DNA of 64,000 bases from Pricia mediterranea (GTDB lineage Bacteria > Bacteroidota > Bacteroidia > Flavobacteriales > Flavobacteriaceae), in NCBI RefSeq assembly GCF_032248455.1, contig NZ_JAVTTP010000001.1, forward strand, positions 1,178,001 to 1,242,000. Reading direction: 5' to 3'. Below, piece by piece: positions 39,560 to 50,753 of this stretch; position 1 is the first letter of the stretch, and every line of letters starts with the position of its first letter. Under the pieces are notes generated by a model. It ran no database searches. It was not told the origin of the DNA and saw only the letters and a program-made list of their open reading frames with translations. The translations under genes and the position numbers were made by a program.

Positions 39560-39659
39560 AGAGTGGGCCTGTAAAGCTAGTAGGACTAATTTTATGGGCC
39601 TTCCAAACCAATTTCATAGGAAAATCCGCTAACAGCTAGGCAGAATTGTTGATTGGAGG

Positions 39660-39667
39660 TACTTTTG
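39660..39667 (+). promoter_or_regulatory. -7 promoter element TACTTTTG upstream of the MarR-type gene
   Basis: Exact TAnnTTTG match 44 bp before the ATG at 39712, suggesting the regulator has its own promoter besides any read-through from the thioredoxin-like gene. No well-spaced -33 TTG is seen. Confidence 0.45.
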
Positions 39668-39711
39668 TAGCCATATTGCTTCCGAATAGAAGATTATTTT
39701 TTGTCATTACA

Positions 39712-40314
39712 ATGATGCACGCTTTCAATCCAGAATATCAGAATCAACAAATCGAGGGCAAAATCGTAGTCGCCCTCGAACGTATTTCCCAAGCGTTCCG
39801 TGTGCTGCTTTGGCAAGAGGGCAAGGAAAACGCCCTTACGCCTATCCAATTGCAGATCCTGCTCTTTATAAAATTCCATGAATCCGAAAAATGCAAGGTC
39901 AATTATTTGGCTAAGGAATTCAATCTTACCAAGGCTACCATTAGCGAAACCGTTCGGCTGTTGTCAAAAAAAAAATTGATCTATAAGGAAACCGACCCGA
40001 CCGATACCCGAAGTTATTCCATTTACCTAACCGAAAAAGGCGGTGAAATCTCCACCAAATCCAGTTCGTTTGCCGGAGCATTGGAAAAACCCATCCATAC
40101 GTTCTCCGAAACCCAAAAAGAAATCCTCTATCAAAGTTTGTTGGAACTTATCGAAAAGTTGAACAGGGCAGGCATCATTACCGTACAGCGGATGTGCTTT
40201 TCATGCCGGTTCTATCAGCCCGGCAAGGAAAGTGATTACTGCAAGTTACTTAAAAAGGAACTGTATAAACCCGATTTGCGGGTCGATTGTCCCGAGCATG
40301 AGATAGCCGTTTAA
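39712..40314 (+). CDS. MarR-family regulator with C-terminal four-cysteine motif
   Basis: The 200-residue protein has a winged-helix domain (about 40-125: TPIQLQILLFIKFHES, VNYLAKEFNLTKATISETVR, wing ETDPTDTRSYSIYLTEKG) and helices for dimerisation. A C-terminal extension of about 40 residues carries C162, C165, C177 and C193 (MCFSCRFY, DYCKLL, DCPEHE). Four such cysteines could bind zinc or an iron-sulphur cluster and so sense redox state. The start is set at ATG 39712; upstream frames use a TTG. Its neighbour upstream is a CPVC thioredoxin-like protein. Confidence 0.9.
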   Translation: MMHAFNPEYQNQQIEGKIVVALERISQAFRVLLWQEGKENALTPIQLQILLFIKFHESEKCKVNYLAKEFNLTKATISETVRLLSKKKLIYKETDPTDTRSYSIYLTEKGGEISTKSSSFAGALEKPIHTFSETQKEILYQSLLELIEKLNRAGIITVQRMCFSCRFYQPGKESDYCKLLKKELYKPDLRVDCPEHEIAV

Positions 40315-40519
40315 ACCCTTGGTGGGTCACCCGTCAACGTTTCTAAGAAATTACAATGGCAAACCGTTTTGGGCTTATTGGATACGGCACAAAAGATTGA
40401 CCACGAACAATTTGTGCGACTATTTGAATCAAAAGTTCTATTTAGCAACAATAGAAAGCTTATATTTATCGTATTCCCCGCTCCGTTGAACCAAAAGTCT
40501 TATCTTAAAATTTTGAGCT

Positions 40520-41626
40520 ATGCCAATCTATATGGATTCACATATCGTTCCGGGGGTGGAGGCCAAGCATGCTGCGGAAGCGCATAAAAAAGATCTCGGT
40601 ATTCAAAATGAATTTGGTTGTAGAAATATGACGTACTGGATCGATGAGGACCGGGGAAGGGTCTTCTGCTTAATCGATGCCCCGAACGAGGAAGCGGTCA
40701 GGGAAATGCACAATCATGCCCATGGACTGGTGCCCCATGAGATTATTCCGGTAAATGGTAAGGTAGTAGAGGCATTTTTGGGAAGAAATGCAGATCCCGA
40801 ACCTTATTTTGACACTAAACCTCCAGGTCTTAAAATTTTCAACGACCCCGCTTTCCGGGTTATTCTGGTAATCAGGACAAAAGATGTCGGACTGTTGCAC
40901 TACCATTTGGGCGATGAACGTGCCAAGCAACTTTTTTCGCTGTATTACGATACAGTTAGGGAACAGGTTCAAAAGTACGAGGGTAGTGAGGTTGAAGTTA
41001 CAGGAGCAGCATTCGTAGTGTCCTTTGCCTCAGTTTCCATGGGAGTCGAATGTGCCATTGCCATTCAGAAAGCCTTGCACGTGGCCGCGGAGCTTATCGA
41101 GTTGCGAATGGGCCTGCATGCCGGTTTGCCAGTAGATCAAAGCGAGGTGCTATTTGGACAAACCTTACAACTGGCGAGTTTTCTTTGCCTTATTGGCGGA
41201 GAAAATCCTATTGTAATGTCTTCCATTGTAAGCGAATTGAACCAACCTGAGCTTCGAAAGAACAGAAATTTTCGTACGGAAATCAAAAGGCTCAATGCCA
41301 CCGAGGAGAAATTACTGAAACGAATTGTCGATATTCTGGATAGTAATTGGCAGAATCCAGAATTTGACATCACCGACTTCTGTCACAAATTGTCAATAAG
41401 CAAATCACAATTATACCGAAAATGCAAAGGTAGTACAGGCAAATCGCCCAACGCTCTATTAAGGGAATATCGATTGCTAAAATCCCTAGTGCTTCTAAGA
41501 AAAGAGGGTCGAAATGTATCTCAAACCACATTTGATTCGGGCTTCAATAGTCCGTCTTATTTTATAAAGTGCTTTCAGCAGCGGTTCGGCCTTCTTCCGT
41601 TGAGTTATTCTAAATTGATAACGTAA
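40520..41626 (+). CDS. DUF4242 / degenerate cyclase / AraC three-domain regulator
   Basis: The 368-residue protein has three parts. Residues 1-80 are a DUF4242 (SCO4226-type, nickel-binding family) domain with conserved histidines (H8, H64, H66, H68 in MHNHAHG). Residues 112-225 resemble a class III nucleotide cyclase (FRVILVIRTKDVGLLHYHLG, EVEVTGAAFVVSF, RMGLHAGLPV), but the second metal Asp of the usual GDG is replaced by alanines 163-164, so catalysis is unlikely. Residues 265-365 are an AraC-type DNA-binding domain (ISKSQLYRK, FNSPSYFIKCFQQRFG). A paralogue follows 18 bp downstream. Confidence 0.88.
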   Translation: MPIYMDSHIVPGVEAKHAAEAHKKDLGIQNEFGCRNMTYWIDEDRGRVFCLIDAPNEEAVREMHNHAHGLVPHEIIPVNGKVVEAFLGRNADPEPYFDTKPPGLKIFNDPAFRVILVIRTKDVGLLHYHLGDERAKQLFSLYYDTVREQVQKYEGSEVEVTGAAFVVSFASVSMGVECAIAIQKALHVAAELIELRMGLHAGLPVDQSEVLFGQTLQLASFLCLIGGENPIVMSSIVSELNQPELRKNRNFRTEIKRLNATEEKLLKRIVDILDSNWQNPEFDITDFCHKLSISKSQLYRKCKGSTGKSPNALLREYRLLKSLVLLRKEGRNVSQTTFDSGFNSPSYFIKCFQQRFGLLPLSYSKLIT

Positions 41627-41644
41627 AAACTTAAAACGCCCATC

Positions 41645-42724
41645 ATGCCACTTTACATGGACATACACACGGTTGATTCAGACGATTTCACGGTCGAGGA
41701 TGTAATCAAGGCCCATATGGAAGATCTGGGCGTTCAGGAAAGGTTCGGCGTAATACAACGAAAATATTGGGTAAACGAACAAGATAAAATGGTTTTTTGT
41801 TTGATGGAAGGCCCCAATAAAGAAGCCTGTCATAAAACCCACGAGGTAGCCCATGGTATGACCGCATGTAATATCATAGAGGTTTCCGATGACGAATACA
41901 ATCTGTTTATGGCCCGGGGCAGTACCAAAAGCAATGACCTTGCCTATACGCTGAATGGCGAACTGGACTCTGGTTTTCGTACCATAATGCTGATTGCAAC
42001 ATCTGATCTATGTGGAATGTACGGTCATTATACCTTTGAAATACGGCGCTTGATAGAACAGTTTAACGGAGTGGTGGTACTGCAGCCATCAGATGAGATC
42101 ATGGCTTCTTACCTATTGGCTTCCGATGCAATCTTATGTGCACTGGCCTTGGCAAAACTTTTAAAATCCATTCCCAATAATTTTGAATTTAGACTGGCCC
42201 TGGTAAGCGGAAATCCAGTGGACGAAGGCGGGACCGATTTATTCGAGGATACCAAGGGAAAAGTGAAAATATTGTGTCAGATCGGGTTGAGCAATGTCAT
42301 GTATTTGGACGCTACGACCAAGGCACTTTCCGCTAAGGAATCGAATACGCCGAAAGTAAACCATAACGATATCAAAATTGTAGGGAGCAACGATTTTTCG
42401 TTTTGTGAAAAATTATCCCGAATATTTAGTGGCGAATTGAAGAACCCAAATTTTAAGAGCGAACAACTTTGCAACCGATTAGACCTGAGCAAGGCACAGA
42501 CCTATAGAAAAATAAAGGCGTTGACGGGCATGTCGCCGAACACATTGATACGGGAACTGCGGCTTCGAAGATCGCTCAAGGCCCTGAAAAACAATCACAA
42601 AACAGTAGCCGAAATCGCCTACGATCTCGGTTTTAACAGTCCCACCTATTTTACGAGGGTTTTCAGAAAAAGATATAATGTACTGCCGACATCTTTTGCC
42701 AATCTTTACGACCATAGTTCATAG
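41645..42724 (+). CDS. DUF4242 / degenerate cyclase / AraC three-domain regulator (second copy)
   Basis: The 359-residue paralogue has the same order of domains: DUF4242 (1-80, YMDIHTVDSDD, KTHEVAHGM), a still more divergent cyclase-like domain (about 108-225, FRTIMLIATSDLCGMYGH, VVVLQPSDEIMASYLL) without recognisable metal ligands, and a canonical AraC domain (about 255-355, LDLSKAQTYRKIKALTGMSP, VAEIAYDLGFNSPTYFTRVF). It is 18 bp after the first copy and clearly in one transcript. The pair may form a heterodimer. The adjoining gene is a FAD-linked oxidoreductase. Confidence 0.88.
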   Translation: MPLYMDIHTVDSDDFTVEDVIKAHMEDLGVQERFGVIQRKYWVNEQDKMVFCLMEGPNKEACHKTHEVAHGMTACNIIEVSDDEYNLFMARGSTKSNDLAYTLNGELDSGFRTIMLIATSDLCGMYGHYTFEIRRLIEQFNGVVVLQPSDEIMASYLLASDAILCALALAKLLKSIPNNFEFRLALVSGNPVDEGGTDLFEDTKGKVKILCQIGLSNVMYLDATTKALSAKESNTPKVNHNDIKIVGSNDFSFCEKLSRIFSGELKNPNFKSEQLCNRLDLSKAQTYRKIKALTGMSPNTLIRELRLRRSLKALKNNHKTVAEIAYDLGFNSPTYFTRVFRKRYNVLPTSFANLYDHSS

Positions 42725-42769
42725 CCATTTTTCAAGATGACCCAATTGTTACATCATTTGGCCCAATAG

Positions 42770-42810
42770 GTTCAGCCGTGGTTCAATTGTTCGAACCTTT
42801 GAACCAAAAC
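42770..42810. promoter_or_regulatory. GGTTCA repeat cluster, candidate AraC-type operator
   Basis: GGTTCA occurs directly at 42770 and 42781 (11 bp apart), followed by GAACC at 42794 and TGAACCAAAA at 42801-42810. The ten bases TGAACCAAAA recur at 40487-40496, just upstream of the first regulator gene. Direct repeats one turn apart are usual for AraC-type binding. The rest of the 42725-43079 gap shows nothing else. Confidence 0.45.
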
Positions 42811-43079
42811 TTACATTTCCATATAGCTTAATACCGTAATTTTATAAGGAAATGCATGATTTATATCCGGCCAACGGACATGGCCTCGACACTTCCCCCA
42901 CCTGTCCATACAAAGCAAAATTATACCGTTGCCATTTCTTCCCCATTTGGCACACCTAGGCTGAATTTAAATTAGGACTATATGCCCTGCTAATAATCAT
43001 CAAATAGTACAGATGCAAAAATCCCTTTAGTTAGGTCTTGAAATATTTTTTAAACTCAAAACATCTTAAATGCACGATT

Positions 43080-44453
43080 ATGGAAGAAAAAATTAAGGAA
43101 TTAAAAAATAGCGCGAACGGGGAAATCATTGTACCACAAGATAAAAATTACGACGAGGCACGAAGCATTTACAATGCCATGATCGATAAACATCCGGGCG
43201 TCATCTTTAAATGTAAGGATATAGAAGACGTCGTTCAGGCCGTTAACTTTGGCAGGGAGAACGATTTGGAAGTCTCCATCCGCAGTGGCGGCCACAATGG
43301 CGCAGGTTTGGCCTTGGTGGACGATGGCTTGGTCATCGACCTTTCGGAAATGAAAGAAATCAAAATTGATCCCGATTCCAAAACTGCCAAAATACAACCG
43401 GGCCGTACCTTGGCCGAAGTAGATAAGGCTACCTATGAGCACGGTCTTGCCCTACCCAGCGGTATCATTGGAACGACAGGAATTGCGGGGCTGACCTTGG
43501 GCGGTGGAATGGGCTATTTGAGCCGAAAAGGTGGATTGACAATAGATAATCTTTTGGAAGCGGATGTGGTGCTGGCATCGGGGGAAGTCGTCACCACAAA
43601 TGCTTCTGACCATTCCGATCTATTTTGGGCCTTACGGGGCGGGGGTGGTAATTTTGGAGTGGTGGTCTCCTTCACTTTTAATCTTATCCCGGTTAAAAAT
43701 GTATATGCCGGTCCCATGTTCTGGCCCATTGAAAAAGCGGAAGAGGCCATGAAATTTTACGATACCATTATTAAAGATGCCTCTGACGATCTTTATGGCT
43801 TCTTCGCCTATTTGATTGTACCTCCTGGCGACCCGTTTCCCGAACATCTGCACATGCAAAGGGTTTGTGGTGTGGTTTGGTGCTATACCGGACCCTTGGA
43901 AAAAGCGGAAGAAGTATTCAAGCCCATTAGGGAATTCGGCCCTCCGATACTTGACTTTGTTGGCGAAATGCCAATGCCCACATTAAATGGTCTTTTTGAC
44001 GGACTCTATCCCTCAGGAATGCAATGGTACTGGAAGGCGCATTACATAAACGAACTTACCGATGAATGCATTCAAGAAAACATAAAACATGGATCGAATA
44101 CCCCTTCCGTTCGTTCGACAATGCACCTTTATCCCATCGATGGAAAAGTCCATGAAATTGCCCAGGAAGATACCGCATGGGCCAATCGGGGAGCGCGTTG
44201 GGCGCAGGTAATCGTGGGAGTCTCCCCAGAACCTGCCGATGCCGATAAGATTACCAAATGGTGTAAAGACTATTACGAAGGCATGAAACCCCATGCCGCC
44301 GGTGGAGCCTATGTCAACTTTATGATGGAAGAAGGCCAGGAACGTATAAAGGCTAGTTATAAGGACAATTATGAACGGCTGACAAAAATCAAGAAGAAAT
44401 ATGATCCCGATAATTTCTTTCATATTAATCAGAATATCGTGCCGGCCGATTAA
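43080..44453 (+). CDS. FAD-linked oxidoreductase (berberine-bridge-enzyme family)
   Basis: The 457-residue protein has a PCMH-type FAD domain (about 25-220) with RSGGHNGAGLALVDDGLVID; His72 is the expected covalent FAD attachment residue. GTTGIAGLTLGGGMGYLSRK follows, where bicovalent members have a cysteine, so attachment is probably through His only. The C-terminal BBE segment (YVNFMMEEGQERIKASYKDN, YDPDNFFHINQNI) is intact. It probably oxidises a sugar or small alcohol with oxygen. Start at ATG 43080; a TTG upstream is less likely. It lies after two AraC-type genes, its probable regulators. Confidence 0.9.
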   Translation: MEEKIKELKNSANGEIIVPQDKNYDEARSIYNAMIDKHPGVIFKCKDIEDVVQAVNFGRENDLEVSIRSGGHNGAGLALVDDGLVIDLSEMKEIKIDPDSKTAKIQPGRTLAEVDKATYEHGLALPSGIIGTTGIAGLTLGGGMGYLSRKGGLTIDNLLEADVVLASGEVVTTNASDHSDLFWALRGGGGNFGVVVSFTFNLIPVKNVYAGPMFWPIEKAEEAMKFYDTIIKDASDDLYGFFAYLIVPPGDPFPEHLHMQRVCGVVWCYTGPLEKAEEVFKPIREFGPPILDFVGEMPMPTLNGLFDGLYPSGMQWYWKAHYINELTDECIQENIKHGSNTPSVRSTMHLYPIDGKVHEIAQEDTAWANRGARWAQVIVGVSPEPADADKITKWCKDYYEGMKPHAAGGAYVNFMMEEGQERIKASYKDNYERLTKIKKKYDPDNFFHINQNIVPAD

Positions 44454-44500
44454 AACTCAAGCAGAGTCTAAAGCCAAAATGTATTTATCGAAATAATATT

Positions 44501-45256
44501 ATGCCAACAGCATTAAATTGGTTTTCATTCCTCTGTATTCTGTTTTTCCACCTGTCGATATTGGGTCAGGAATCCAGAGATGTAAATTCAAACGGGTTCA
44601 GGTTTTCAGGCACCATTGGCCTGAACACCAATGGTATCTCTCCCGTCCCTGCATTTTCACTGGGACAGCCGGCAATCATGGGATTCTTTTCATTGCGAAA
44701 GAACAGATTTAGTTTTGACCCCGAGATTGCCTACTCCACAAACGGTACTCCTTGGTTTTTCAGTAGTTGTTTTCGGTATCGAATTTTCGGTAAGAGGAAT
44801 TTTGGTATAAAGGTAGCCGCCAACTGGAGTATTTCGCATAGTTATCCAGAAGTTATAGAGAACGGCATTTCAAAAACAATTACTAAAGGACAGCGGTATC
44901 TCGTCCTTGAGTTTGCACCTACTTATAAATTTACGGAAAAGTTCAGCTTAGGATCTGCCGTTTTCGTAGGTCGTGGCTTAGATAAAGGCTCGGTAAAACA
45001 AATGCACTTTATTTCGGTGGTCGCTAACATTACCAAATTGCGGCTATCGGGCAAATTGTATTACAGCCTCTATCCACAGGTATTTTATTTGAATTTGGAT
45101 GGTGATGAGGATAGCTTTTTTGTTTCCGGGGTTGCGGGAATTGGCCATAAAAAAATTCCGTTGTTTTTATCCACACAAATGAACCAATCTTTGGTCACCT
45201 CTATTTCGCCCGATCCCGGGTTTTCATGGAACGTAGGATTGTCCTATAGTTTTTAA
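44501..45256 (+). CDS. outer-membrane beta-barrel-like protein, unknown function
   Basis: The 251-residue protein has a signal peptide (about 1-22, ending LSILGQ) and alternating hydrophobic strands throughout (GFRFSGTIGLNTNG, FSFDPEIAYSTNG, YLVLEFAPTYKFTEKFSLGS, LSGKLYYSLYPQVFYLNL), ending in the aromatic WNVGLSYSF that is typical of barrels inserted by BamA. I do not recognise a named family. It starts 47 bp after the FAD oxidoreductase gene and may be part of the same operon, possibly as a pore or surface protein. Confidence 0.75.
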   Translation: MPTALNWFSFLCILFFHLSILGQESRDVNSNGFRFSGTIGLNTNGISPVPAFSLGQPAIMGFFSLRKNRFSFDPEIAYSTNGTPWFFSSCFRYRIFGKRNFGIKVAANWSISHSYPEVIENGISKTITKGQRYLVLEFAPTYKFTEKFSLGSAVFVGRGLDKGSVKQMHFISVVANITKLRLSGKLYYSLYPQVFYLNLDGDEDSFFVSGVAGIGHKKIPLFLSTQMNQSLVTSISPDPGFSWNVGLSYSF

Positions 45257-49578: not shown

Positions 49579-49893
49579 ATGAGAAGAAAAGCAAGACATT
49601 ACACTGATGAGTTCAAGCAAAAGGCCGTGGAACTGACCTATGCACGCGGTAGCATCGTTGAGATCTGCCGTGAACTTGACATCCCCAGATCTGTACTGGG
49701 CAGATGGAGAAAGGAGATGGGCGAACTCGGCCCCAACAGTTTTCCGGGCCGTGGCAACGCGAAAATGACCGATGAACAAAAAGAGATAGGCCGGTTGGAG
49801 AAACGCCTGAGGGACGCGGAACTTGAACGCGACATCCTAAAAAAGGCCATTGGCATCTTCTCCGCGAGCGACAGGAAATCTACCGGTTCATAA
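49579..49893 (+). CDS. IS3-family OrfA (helix-turn-helix, leucine zipper)
   Basis: The 104-residue protein has an N-terminal helix-turn-helix (YTDEFKQKAVELTYARGS, CRELDIPRSVLGRWRKE) and a coiled coil (EQKEIGRLEKRLRDAELERD) that binds the element ends. Near the end, AAAAAAG at 49839-49845 is a typical -1 slippery heptamer. Shifting there leads into the orfB frame without a stop (HWHLLRERQEIYRFIKDHKK), so the active enzyme is probably an OrfAB fusion. Confidence 0.9.
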   Translation: MRRKARHYTDEFKQKAVELTYARGSIVEICRELDIPRSVLGRWRKEMGELGPNSFPGRGNAKMTDEQKEIGRLEKRLRDAELERDILKKAIGIFSASDRKSTGS

Positions 49894-49925
49894 AGGACCA
49901 CAAAAAGGAATTCCCTGTCGGGAAG

Positions 49926-50753
49926 ATGTGCAAAGTCTTCAAGGTAAGCAGAAGCGGATTTTATGCATGGCAGAACCATATGCCCTCGAAGCGCGACAAC
50001 GAGAACCGGATGTTGCTTTGCGAAATAATGCGTGTGCACGAACGGAGCAAGGCCAGTTACGGGAGCCCCCGTATGACCGATGAGCTCAGGGCCCGTGGGT
50101 TCGATGTGTCCAGGCCACGGGTGGCCAGGTTGATGAGGAAAAACGGGATACGGGCGGTCCACGCCAAAAAGTTTGTGGTAACGACCGATTCCAAACACAG
50201 GTATCCGGTGGTGGAAAACAAACTGGACAGGGACTTCTCCGCCGGGGAAAGCGGCCGGGCATGGGTATCGGACATCACCTATGTAAAAACGGCCAAGGGG
50301 TGGCTTTACCTGACCGTTGTCCTGGACCTTTTTGACCGTAAAGTACTGGGCTGGTCGCAAAGCGACGATCTGTGCGCGGAGAAAACCACGGTGGCAGCAT
50401 GGAAAATGGCAGTTGTCAACCGTCCGCCCTCAAAGAAACTGATCTTTCATTCGGACAGGGGCATACAATATGCCTGCCATGATTTTGTCAATTTACTGGA
50501 CAGCTACAAATGTGTTGAAAGGAGCATGAGCAGAAAAGGAAATTGTTGGGACAATGCCGTGGCCGAGAGCTTCTTTAAGACCATAAAGGTCGAACTCATC
50601 TATAGAAACGGCTACCGGGAGAAAAAGGAAGCTGCGCTATCGATATTCGAATGGATCGAAACATGGTACAACAGGAACAGGAGACACTCCGCTCTTGGTA
50701 ATATGACAATCAATGAATTTGAGAAATCAATGCAACTTAAAAATGTAGCTTAA
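49926..50753 (+). CDS. IS3-family OrfB transposase (DDE integrase core)
   Basis: The 275-residue protein has the rve integrase core: WVSDITYVKTAKGWLYLTVV (first Asp), FHSDRGIQYACHDFVNLL (second Asp) and GNCWDNAVAESFFKTIKVEL (Glu), and ends RRHSALGNMTINEFEKS. The frame is open upstream to the slippery site in orfA. It is intact and complete for the family. Confidence 0.93.
   Translation: MCKVFKVSRSGFYAWQNHMPSKRDNENRMLLCEIMRVHERSKASYGSPRMTDELRARGFDVSRPRVARLMRKNGIRAVHAKKFVVTTDSKHRYPVVENKLDRDFSAGESGRAWVSDITYVKTAKGWLYLTVVLDLFDRKVLGWSQSDDLCAEKTTVAAWKMAVVNRPPSKKLIFHSDRGIQYACHDFVNLLDSYKCVERSMSRKGNCWDNAVAESFFKTIKVELIYRNGYREKKEAALSIFEWIETWYNRNRRHSALGNMTINEFEKSMQLKNVA

Follow-up and report, generated by a model that had tools for sequence, protein, structure and literature searches.

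What is the function of two adjacent genes that each join a DUF4242 domain, a cyclase-like domain and an AraC-type DNA-binding domain, and why do they stand next to a flavin oxidase? The question arises in a stretch of 64,000 nucleotides of Pricia mediterranea DNA (the window; contig NZ_JAVTTP010000001.1, positions 1,178,001 to 1,242,000). On its plus strand the pair, here called genes A and B, leads, and a gene for an oxidase dependent on flavin adenine dinucleotide (FAD) follows. We propose that A and B are AraC-type one-component transcription regulators. A ligand would be sensed through DUF4242, a dead cyclase would serve as scaffold or relay, and the AraC domains would act on 21-bp repeats to control the regulators themselves and the oxidase. 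We put the probability of this explanation as a whole at about 0.7. The genes and domains are listed below.

40520..41626, plus strand: gene A, putative DUF4242–pseudo-cyclase–AraC regulator of 368 aa, from its open reading frame (ORF) and domain and fold searches
40529..40753, plus strand: DUF4242/SCO4226-like domain of A, residues 4–78 (PF14026, E 3.7e-20)
40841..41269, plus strand: class III cyclase fold of A without catalytic residues, about residues 108–250, from fold and residue comparison
41381..41611, plus strand: AraC-type DNA-binding domain of A, residues 288–364
41645..42724, plus strand: gene B, putative DUF4242–pseudo-cyclase–AraC regulator of 359 aa, starting 18 bp past A
41654..41884, plus strand: DUF4242/SCO4226-like domain of B, residues 4–80 (PF14026, E 7.6e-17)
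41966..42409, plus strand: class III cyclase fold of B, shortened, with three of four catalytic residues lost, about residues 108–255
42467..42700, plus strand: AraC-type DNA-binding domain of B, residues 275–352
43080..44453, plus strand: FAD oxidase of the VAO/berberine-bridge type (PF01565, E 1.3e-31; PF08031, E 1.3e-14), start position probable

The three-domain composition of both genes, which the first-pass annotation had read from the letters alone, is confirmed by profile and fold searches. The PF14026 profile scores 72.3 bits in A and 61.7 bits in B against a cut-off of 28.5. The fold searches bear on the middle and AraC domains and hardly probe DUF4242. Structure comparison, on which the cyclase claim had been staked, finds a cyclase fold in the middle domain of A and of B. 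The Foldseek ranking for B was distorted by multi-domain matches, and the VIA-align ranges were taken instead; a sequence search with the middle domain of B alone returned nothing meaningful. The C-terminal domain of about 100 residues carries two helix-turn-helix motifs in both proteins, as in AraC/XylS regulators. The cupin-like ligand domain, which is N-terminal in AraC and in many, not all, members of that family, is not present, and the N-terminal part of A and B is PF14026.

A 21-bp direct-repeat operator, about TGAAYCAWWWNTNNNATTT twice, is predicted before A and before the oxidase. Its parts are as follows.

40403..40422, plus strand: predicted operator box 1 (−117 to −98), the first half of the A-side 21-bp direct repeat, which aligns among the promoters of related A genes
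40424..40443, plus strand: predicted operator box 2, TTGAATCAAAAGTTCTATTT, 0 mismatches to the consensus (−96 in A-clade promoters)
40486..40505, plus strand: predicted operator box 3, beside the A start codon, 1 mismatch (A-clade promoters keep it at −34 to −31)
42778..42818, plus strand: predicted oxidase operator, with a weak half at 42778–42797 (found by eye) and a perfect half at 42799–42818 (TTGAACCAAAACTTACATTT, 0 mismatches)

Alignment of the A promoters of close relatives yields conserved blocks at about −117, −96 and −34. Box positions in the A clade were compared over upstream stretches of at least 60 bp, and the box 2 counterpart lies at −94 instead of −96 in L036 and its duplicate L107. 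Within the window, TTGAAYCAAAASTYNNATTT occurs without mismatch only at 40424, before A, and at 42799, before the oxidase, and with one mismatch at 40486; when three mismatches are allowed, the operator block has 4 matches where 1.2 are expected. These three positions are also the best operator matches in the whole 4.57-Mb genome, 40424 and 42799 being the sole perfect ones. The stretch 42770–42810, singled out in the first-pass annotation as a place for binding of the purified protein, is overlapped by the A-promoter repeat match at 42799–42818. No further targets emerged in the genome itself, as the four remaining two-mismatch matches, for which just the ORFs were inspected, do not rise above the reversed-pattern control (7 versus 6 in total), and the gap before its second oxidase (L172) holds no operator (score −12.6). 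The repeats at 40403–40505 and 42778–42818 would be the sites presumably bound by A and B.

The operator can be followed in other genomes. Boxes 1 and 2 from nine A promoters served to train a matrix, with which paired half-sites were scored at spacings of 15–35 in the other loci. The scan covered stretches of at least 200 bp outside the training clade, and the 330-bp oxidase stretches may include the end of an upstream gene. A spacing of 21 gave the highest mean in A-type regulator promoters (−4.0, n=73), in B-type promoters (−5.1, n=23) and in oxidase promoters (−2.7, n=32), against −10.8 for shuffles in each case, while the means at other spacings ranged from −6.8 to −11.5. At this spacing 10 of the 32 oxidase promoters and 14 of the 73 A-type promoters exceed the 99% level of the shuffles.

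The genes that accompany the regulators were surveyed in parallel. Residues 1–254 of A are matched in 85 of 397 Flavobacteriaceae genomes. These genomes have 49 oxidase homologues, of which 40 lie no more than 4 kb from a match; 39 of the 40 are on the same strand as the match and downstream of it. The count is a lower bound, since the oxidase of G775:C7, counted as unlinked, adjoins a B-type regulator; another, in G003 (contig C140), is outside the count. An oxidase homologue is present in 43 of the 85 matching genomes versus 6 of 46 Flavobacteriaceae without a DUF4242-cyclase, the latter being a picked list and not a random one, in which G008 and G011 carry a relative without DUF4242. Ten gene types recur, and 88 of 97 loci have one or more of them within four genes on the same strand, a descriptive figure because the types were chosen for recurring. 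They are stand-alone DUF4242 (37 loci), the oxidase (32), truncated globin (14), SnoaL-like (12), SoxA/TsdA-like cytochrome c (8), nitrilase (7), the lipoprotein-like family c21 (6), two cupin-like families (5 and 5, the second assigned by eye) and NnrU-like (3). The nine loci with none of them include L068 and L150, which encode two-domain proteins, and L074, which ends at a contig edge. Duplicate loci (L091, L144 and L107) were removed from this survey and from the protein alignment, and still stand double in the raw neighbour table.

The same operator precedes many of these neighbours. With a threshold score of 5 or more, intergenic gaps alone were tested, in stretches of at least 110 bp (30 gene bases included), before labelled ORFs or those of at least 100 aa, and outside the training clade. 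An operator is found before 23 of 34 stand-alone DUF4242 genes, 8 of 12 globin, 7 of 18 oxidase and 6 of 14 SnoaL-like genes, and similarly before c21 (4/7), nitrilase (3/4), NnrU-like (2/3) and cytochrome c (1/1) genes; the single c14 gene has none (0/1). Before other genes it is found in 5 of 342 cases, one of these, L149, being an A-type promoter that hardly differs from a training member. One sequence thus stands before functionally unrelated genes that are linked only by the adjacent regulator, and this is the strongest evidence for their control by the regulator.

A later set of loci behaves in the same way. The first gap downstream of the regulator has a mean score of +3.8 versus −11.3 for shuffles (18 gaps, 5 scoring at least 5), and the oxidase gaps, where the oxidase is often the second gene, have a mean of −7.9 versus −14.3. 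The oxidase promoters of genomes without the regulator family show no operator (0/5, mean −12.4; 5 of 6 oxidases scored, a broken piece in G164 being omitted). Unlinked oxidases in genomes that do have the family show it in one case of nine. In that case (L185, G656:C1) no regulator lies in the fetched stretch, yet the oxidase has a 21-bp operator scoring 19.6, which suggests control in trans. At another locus (L087, genome G014) a lone B-type gene has the operator before itself and is followed by the oxidase. The control of the oxidoreductase that the first-pass annotation had suspected is therefore supported, by the conserved adjacency and by the A-promoter repeat match at 42799–42818.

Several results weigh against this explanation or narrow it. 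The upstream oxidase half-site at 42778 is weak. A smaller excess appears at spacing 30, where 6 of 32 oxidase and 7 of 73 A-type promoters exceed the 99% level of the shuffles; observed means lie slightly above the shuffles at most spacings, and the comparisons with shuffles ignore kinship among loci. In the later set L193 and L202 repeat L028 and L029, without which 4 of 16 first gaps score at least 5 with a mean of about 3.0, and just 2 of the 18 oxidase gaps reach that score. The two cupin families show the operator in 1 of 4 and 0 of 2 cases, so not every neighbour is a target. The regulator itself is preceded by an operator in 11 of 77 cases outside the training clade, and autoregulation is therefore not general. 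The oxidase, too, is one cargo among several, because 42 of the 85 matching genomes have no oxidase homologue and the arrays of the nearest A-type relatives (L024, L025, L036, L092, L104, L105, L106) are followed by cytochrome c/DsrE or other genes and not by the oxidase. Finally, both metal-binding Asp are kept in 13 of 116 three-domain rows of the protein alignment, where nucleotide binding could thus persist.

The loss of catalysis was judged on that alignment, which has 123 rows; 116 of them, A and B included, were counted as three-domain from their length (at least 330 residues) and not from scanning every row for domains. None of the four catalytic residues is left in A: R119 and A163 stand at the metal Asp, Q217 and F221 at the transition-state Asn and Arg. 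The annotation was right that TGAA at residues 161–164 of A replaces the GDG motif. Its view that the metal ligands of B are unrecognisable holds for the first position (A118) and not for the second, where the Asp is kept (D150); with G205 and I209, three of the four residues are lost in B. Among the 116 three-domain rows the first metal Asp is found in 15, the second in 43, the Asn in 15 and the Arg in 27; both Asp occur together with the Arg in 5 rows, and all four residues in none. Judged by these residues, catalysis by A, B and their three-domain relatives is unlikely.

Two-domain DUF4242-cyclases (L099 in Agrobacterium, L100 in Ensifer and L101 in Azospirillum; L068, L150 and L173 in Bacteroidota) begin, like A and B, with DUF4242 followed by the cyclase domain. 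They differ from A and B in having three or four of the catalytic residues and no AraC domain. L068 and L150, of 275 and 270 residues, carry all four; four alphaproteobacterial (rhizobial/Azospirillum) rows read D, D, Q, R. The Pfam family Guanylate_cyc (PF00211) matches all three two-domain proteins scanned (L099, L068 and L173) and is not matched by A or B up to E 0.1. In the 123-row tree, which is unrooted and in which some long branches meet, the six two-domain proteins are set apart from all other rows by a branch supported at 100/99. The three-domain form would accordingly be the derived state, since its two-domain relatives keep the catalytic residues, the Pfam match and a separate branch. 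The earlier idea of a regulator descended from a cyclase is strengthened by the retained fold together with the lost residues. Neither L068 nor L150 has any of the ten recurrent neighbour types beside it. The gene of L173, the third from Bacteroidota, adjoins a gene for a protein that binds cyclic nucleotide monophosphates.

In the proposed mechanism a ligand would be bound by DUF4242 at a site including D6, H8, H22, D25, C50 and H64. The pseudo-cyclase may help to hold the dimer and relay the change of shape, and the paired AraC domains would occupy two 20-bp half-sites set 21 bp apart. The promoters of their own operon and of the adjacent FAD oxidase would then be switched on, activation being presumed over repression. 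Boxes 1 and 2 upstream, with box 3 at the start codon, would be the sites of their own promoter, and box 3 may give a negative feedback that limits A and B. In the past, an ancestral DUF4242-cyclase would have been silenced and fused to an output domain; a route from signal through enzyme and second messenger to receptor would have been condensed into one protein, provided that the change ran in this direction. That the operator also precedes stand-alone DUF4242 genes in relatives suggests that sensor and target share a ligand.

Nickel was the first choice for that ligand, from the family name. A nickel-responsive regulator, with the oxidase and the other targets forming a nickel response, would fit the membership of DUF4242 in the family of SCO4226 from Streptomyces coelicolor, whose structure 4oi3 is matched with E 2e-6. 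SCO4226 binds four Ni per dimer with a dissociation constant of 10 uM, according to the available part of its description (PMC4186839). D6, H8 and H22 are kept in 122 of 123 rows, the exception being the Azospirillum two-domain row (L101), and D25, C50 and H64 in all 123; their SCO4226 counterparts appear to be D6, H8, H23, D26, C51 and H65. In the same portion of that source His23, aligned with H22, is the only one of the six named as a Ni ligand, and the Ni-1 ligands Asp43, Ser46 and His76 are proposed to be conserved in Streptomyces (PMC4186839). In the SCO4226 alignment, with the numbering offset estimated, the Ser46 position is R45 in A and D47 in B, the Asp43 position is D42 in A and N44 in B, and His76 falls outside the aligned stretch. 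The nickel-binding equivalog NF033706, with a cut-off of 125 bits, gives A 50.4 and B 43.9. To our knowledge none of the ten recurrent neighbour types, stand-alone DUF4242 aside, is a nickel gene, which counts further against this reading. Nickel is thus weakened as the ligand by the ligand comparison and the missed cut-off, and we consider a nickel response unlikely; as the Ni-1 ligands are not all kept and only the H22 counterpart is a named ligand, the label itself is doubtful for this family, although annotated records, those of L099, L100 and L101 among them, call DUF4242 proteins 'nickel-binding protein'. Alternatively, the signal could be ATP, GTP or a cyclic nucleotide, still bound by the pseudo-cyclase without turnover. 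The fold is retained, its G155 and P204 are kept in 123 of 123 rows, R113 in 121 and F212 in 120, and the 13 rows with both metal Asp would suit such a sensor. The catalytic positions are nevertheless changed, all four in A and three in B, while the DUF4242 residues are near-invariant, and the middle domain is of unequal length in A and B, and we think this quite improbable. Of the 'metal- or nucleotide-responsive' pair suggested earlier, the nucleotide catalytic site is lost and the SCO4226 nickel site is not kept; a metal or some other ligand could still sit at the six near-invariant residues.

The pair could also form an obligate heterodimer whose composite sensor is shared between the two proteins, on the model of the heterodimeric class III cyclases. 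The 18-bp gap and the shared promoter would agree with this, as would tandem arrays of two to four genes in 9 of 99 Flavobacteriaceae arrays and, separately, in f38, another family of the phylum. The 113 Flavobacteriaceae matches resolve into 90 single genes, 6 pairs, 1 triple and 2 quadruple arrays; this count includes a few two-domain or broken genes (L150, L173, L175) and leaves out two matches within one double-DUF4242 gene of G175. With 90 of 99 arrays being single genes, and with the lone B-type gene of G014 preceding the oxidase behind an operator, an obligate partnership is very unlikely, and the need for a pair implied by the first-pass annotation is not borne out. Its expectation that the gene pair is conserved beside the oxidase holds in part: regulator and oxidase adjoin widely, and a pair or longer array with the oxidase in the next two genes is found in 6 of 14 contiguous tandem arrays (the window, L158 and the four f38 arrays L066, L067, L069 and L070). 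An ordinary neighbourhood, with an AraC regulator beside the oxidase by accident and repeats by chance, is scarcely credible. AraC-type domains are common in these genomes, but 40 of 49 oxidase homologues adjoin a match, the operator peaks at one spacing in non-training loci and in the later set, and it is not found in the five oxidase promoters scored from family-negative genomes. We therefore return to the AraC-type one-component regulators that sense a ligand through DUF4242.

By their DNA-binding domain and predicted operator, A and B belong to the AraC family. They share with AraC, Rns and ToxT the double helix-turn-helix C-terminal fold, a direct-repeat operator near their own or a neighbouring promoter, here found by computation with binding predicted, and the likely control of a neighbouring enzyme gene. 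AraC proteins read direct repeats at two helical turns. In contrast to these regulators, the sensor part of A and B is DUF4242 plus a pseudo-cyclase. On sequence grounds they fall outside both the working cyclases and the SCO4226 nickel equivalog. The class III cyclases Rv1900c (LipJ) and Ma1120 have the fold of the middle domain, whereas the catalytic residues are lost (4/4) in A and (3/4) in B. SCO4226 has the DUF4242 domain and the six near-invariant residues in common with A and B, as do the two-domain cyclases (in Azospirillum without D6, H8 and H22), but it is a stand-alone protein of 82 residues. Mycobacterial proteins such as Rv1358 and Rv2488c join a cyclase homology domain to a LuxR-type DNA-binding output without DUF4242, and some of them may be inactive. 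DUF2652, treated in PMC4886424, is another cyclase-like family. A published description of the DUF4242–pseudo-cyclase–AraC layout was not found in searches of the open-licence PMC literature.

The oxidase has the FAD_binding_4 and BBE domains of the VAO/PCMH–berberine bridge oxidases, and its nearest solved relative is EncM (E 3e-89), an FAD-dependent oxygenase and biosynthetic enzyme of a Streptomyces pathway. Its ORF begins at TTG 43038 according to the ORF tool, and 43080 is the start that we infer. A GGH motif is present and no Cys lies within 72 residues after the His; a second covalent FAD link through Cys belongs only to bicovalent members of this group, and the oxidase probably holds FAD through one His.

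Stand-alone DUF4242 proteins are probably exported, because 35 of 44 ORFs pass a crude test for a hydrophobic N-terminal stretch and sufficient length. One protein (4oi3/4oi6) accounts for the solved DUF4242 structures met in the PDB searches, and it is placed under oxidative stress in PMC4991794. Three stand-alone DUF4242 genes cluster at L094, and at L095 and L096 ORFs carry a doubled DUF4242 domain; the fetched stretches of all three loci showed no three-domain regulator. Across the phylum sample, 44 of 395 genomes have PF14026 in some form. In the tandem pairs of f38 neither copy falls into the window's A or B clade, and pairs have therefore probably formed repeatedly.

Other loci record further changes. 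At L175 (genome G527) a three-domain gene is split into ORFs 714–1325 and 1442–1834 upstream of an oxidase gene. L097 (5624–6376) and L098 (5736–6518) encode a dead cyclase with AraC and without DUF4242 between the same flanking genes as three-domain relatives; none of the ten recurrent neighbour types is present there, and DUF4242 and cargo may have been lost together. The regulator with its variable cargo recurs at two sites. One lies between housekeeping genes, SDR/peptidase on one flank and pyruvate dehydrogenase on the other (L027, L072, L086, L122, L123 and others); the other adjoins genes that by eye resemble ruvB and queG (L080, L088, L089, L118 and others).

In the window itself a gene for a MarR-family regulator (39646–40314) precedes A; the C-terminal tail of the protein is rich in Cys and might bind metal or sense thiols. 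The gene was left out of the unit, its relative preceding A in one other locus alone (L105, genome G540), and a GNAT gene, with a relative in one other locus of the neighbour table, was likewise rejected. The outer-membrane-like barrel gene D had been noted by the first-pass annotation after the regulators on the same strand; no relative of it was found in the other loci of that table, and it probably does not belong to the conserved unit. An IS3-like transposase gene pair, judged from ORF translations, lies downstream at 49579–50753.

What is new here is the predicted 21-bp direct-repeat operator; the most interesting aspect is the apparent step from enzyme to switch. The predicted operator recurs in relatives before other small redox or detoxification genes. 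A wider history can be offered tentatively, as possible rather than probable. A DUF4242-cyclase that once signalled by cyclic nucleotide would have been silenced, fused to an output domain, and provided with a new operator and exchangeable cargo. DUF4242 would then be a general sensor of one small ligand, not of nickel as such, and the proteins under the switch (stand-alone DUF4242, globin and FAD oxidase) would deal with that ligand as well.

Our study suggests a case of an enzyme turning into a sensor, in a series that is still extant, from members with the full catalytic set through those with both metal Asp to those with none. The DUF4242 family gains a regulon logic that can be tested. 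The predicted operator also makes the signal findable, as a reporter placed behind 40380–40520 or 42770–43080 could be used in a screen for the inducer.

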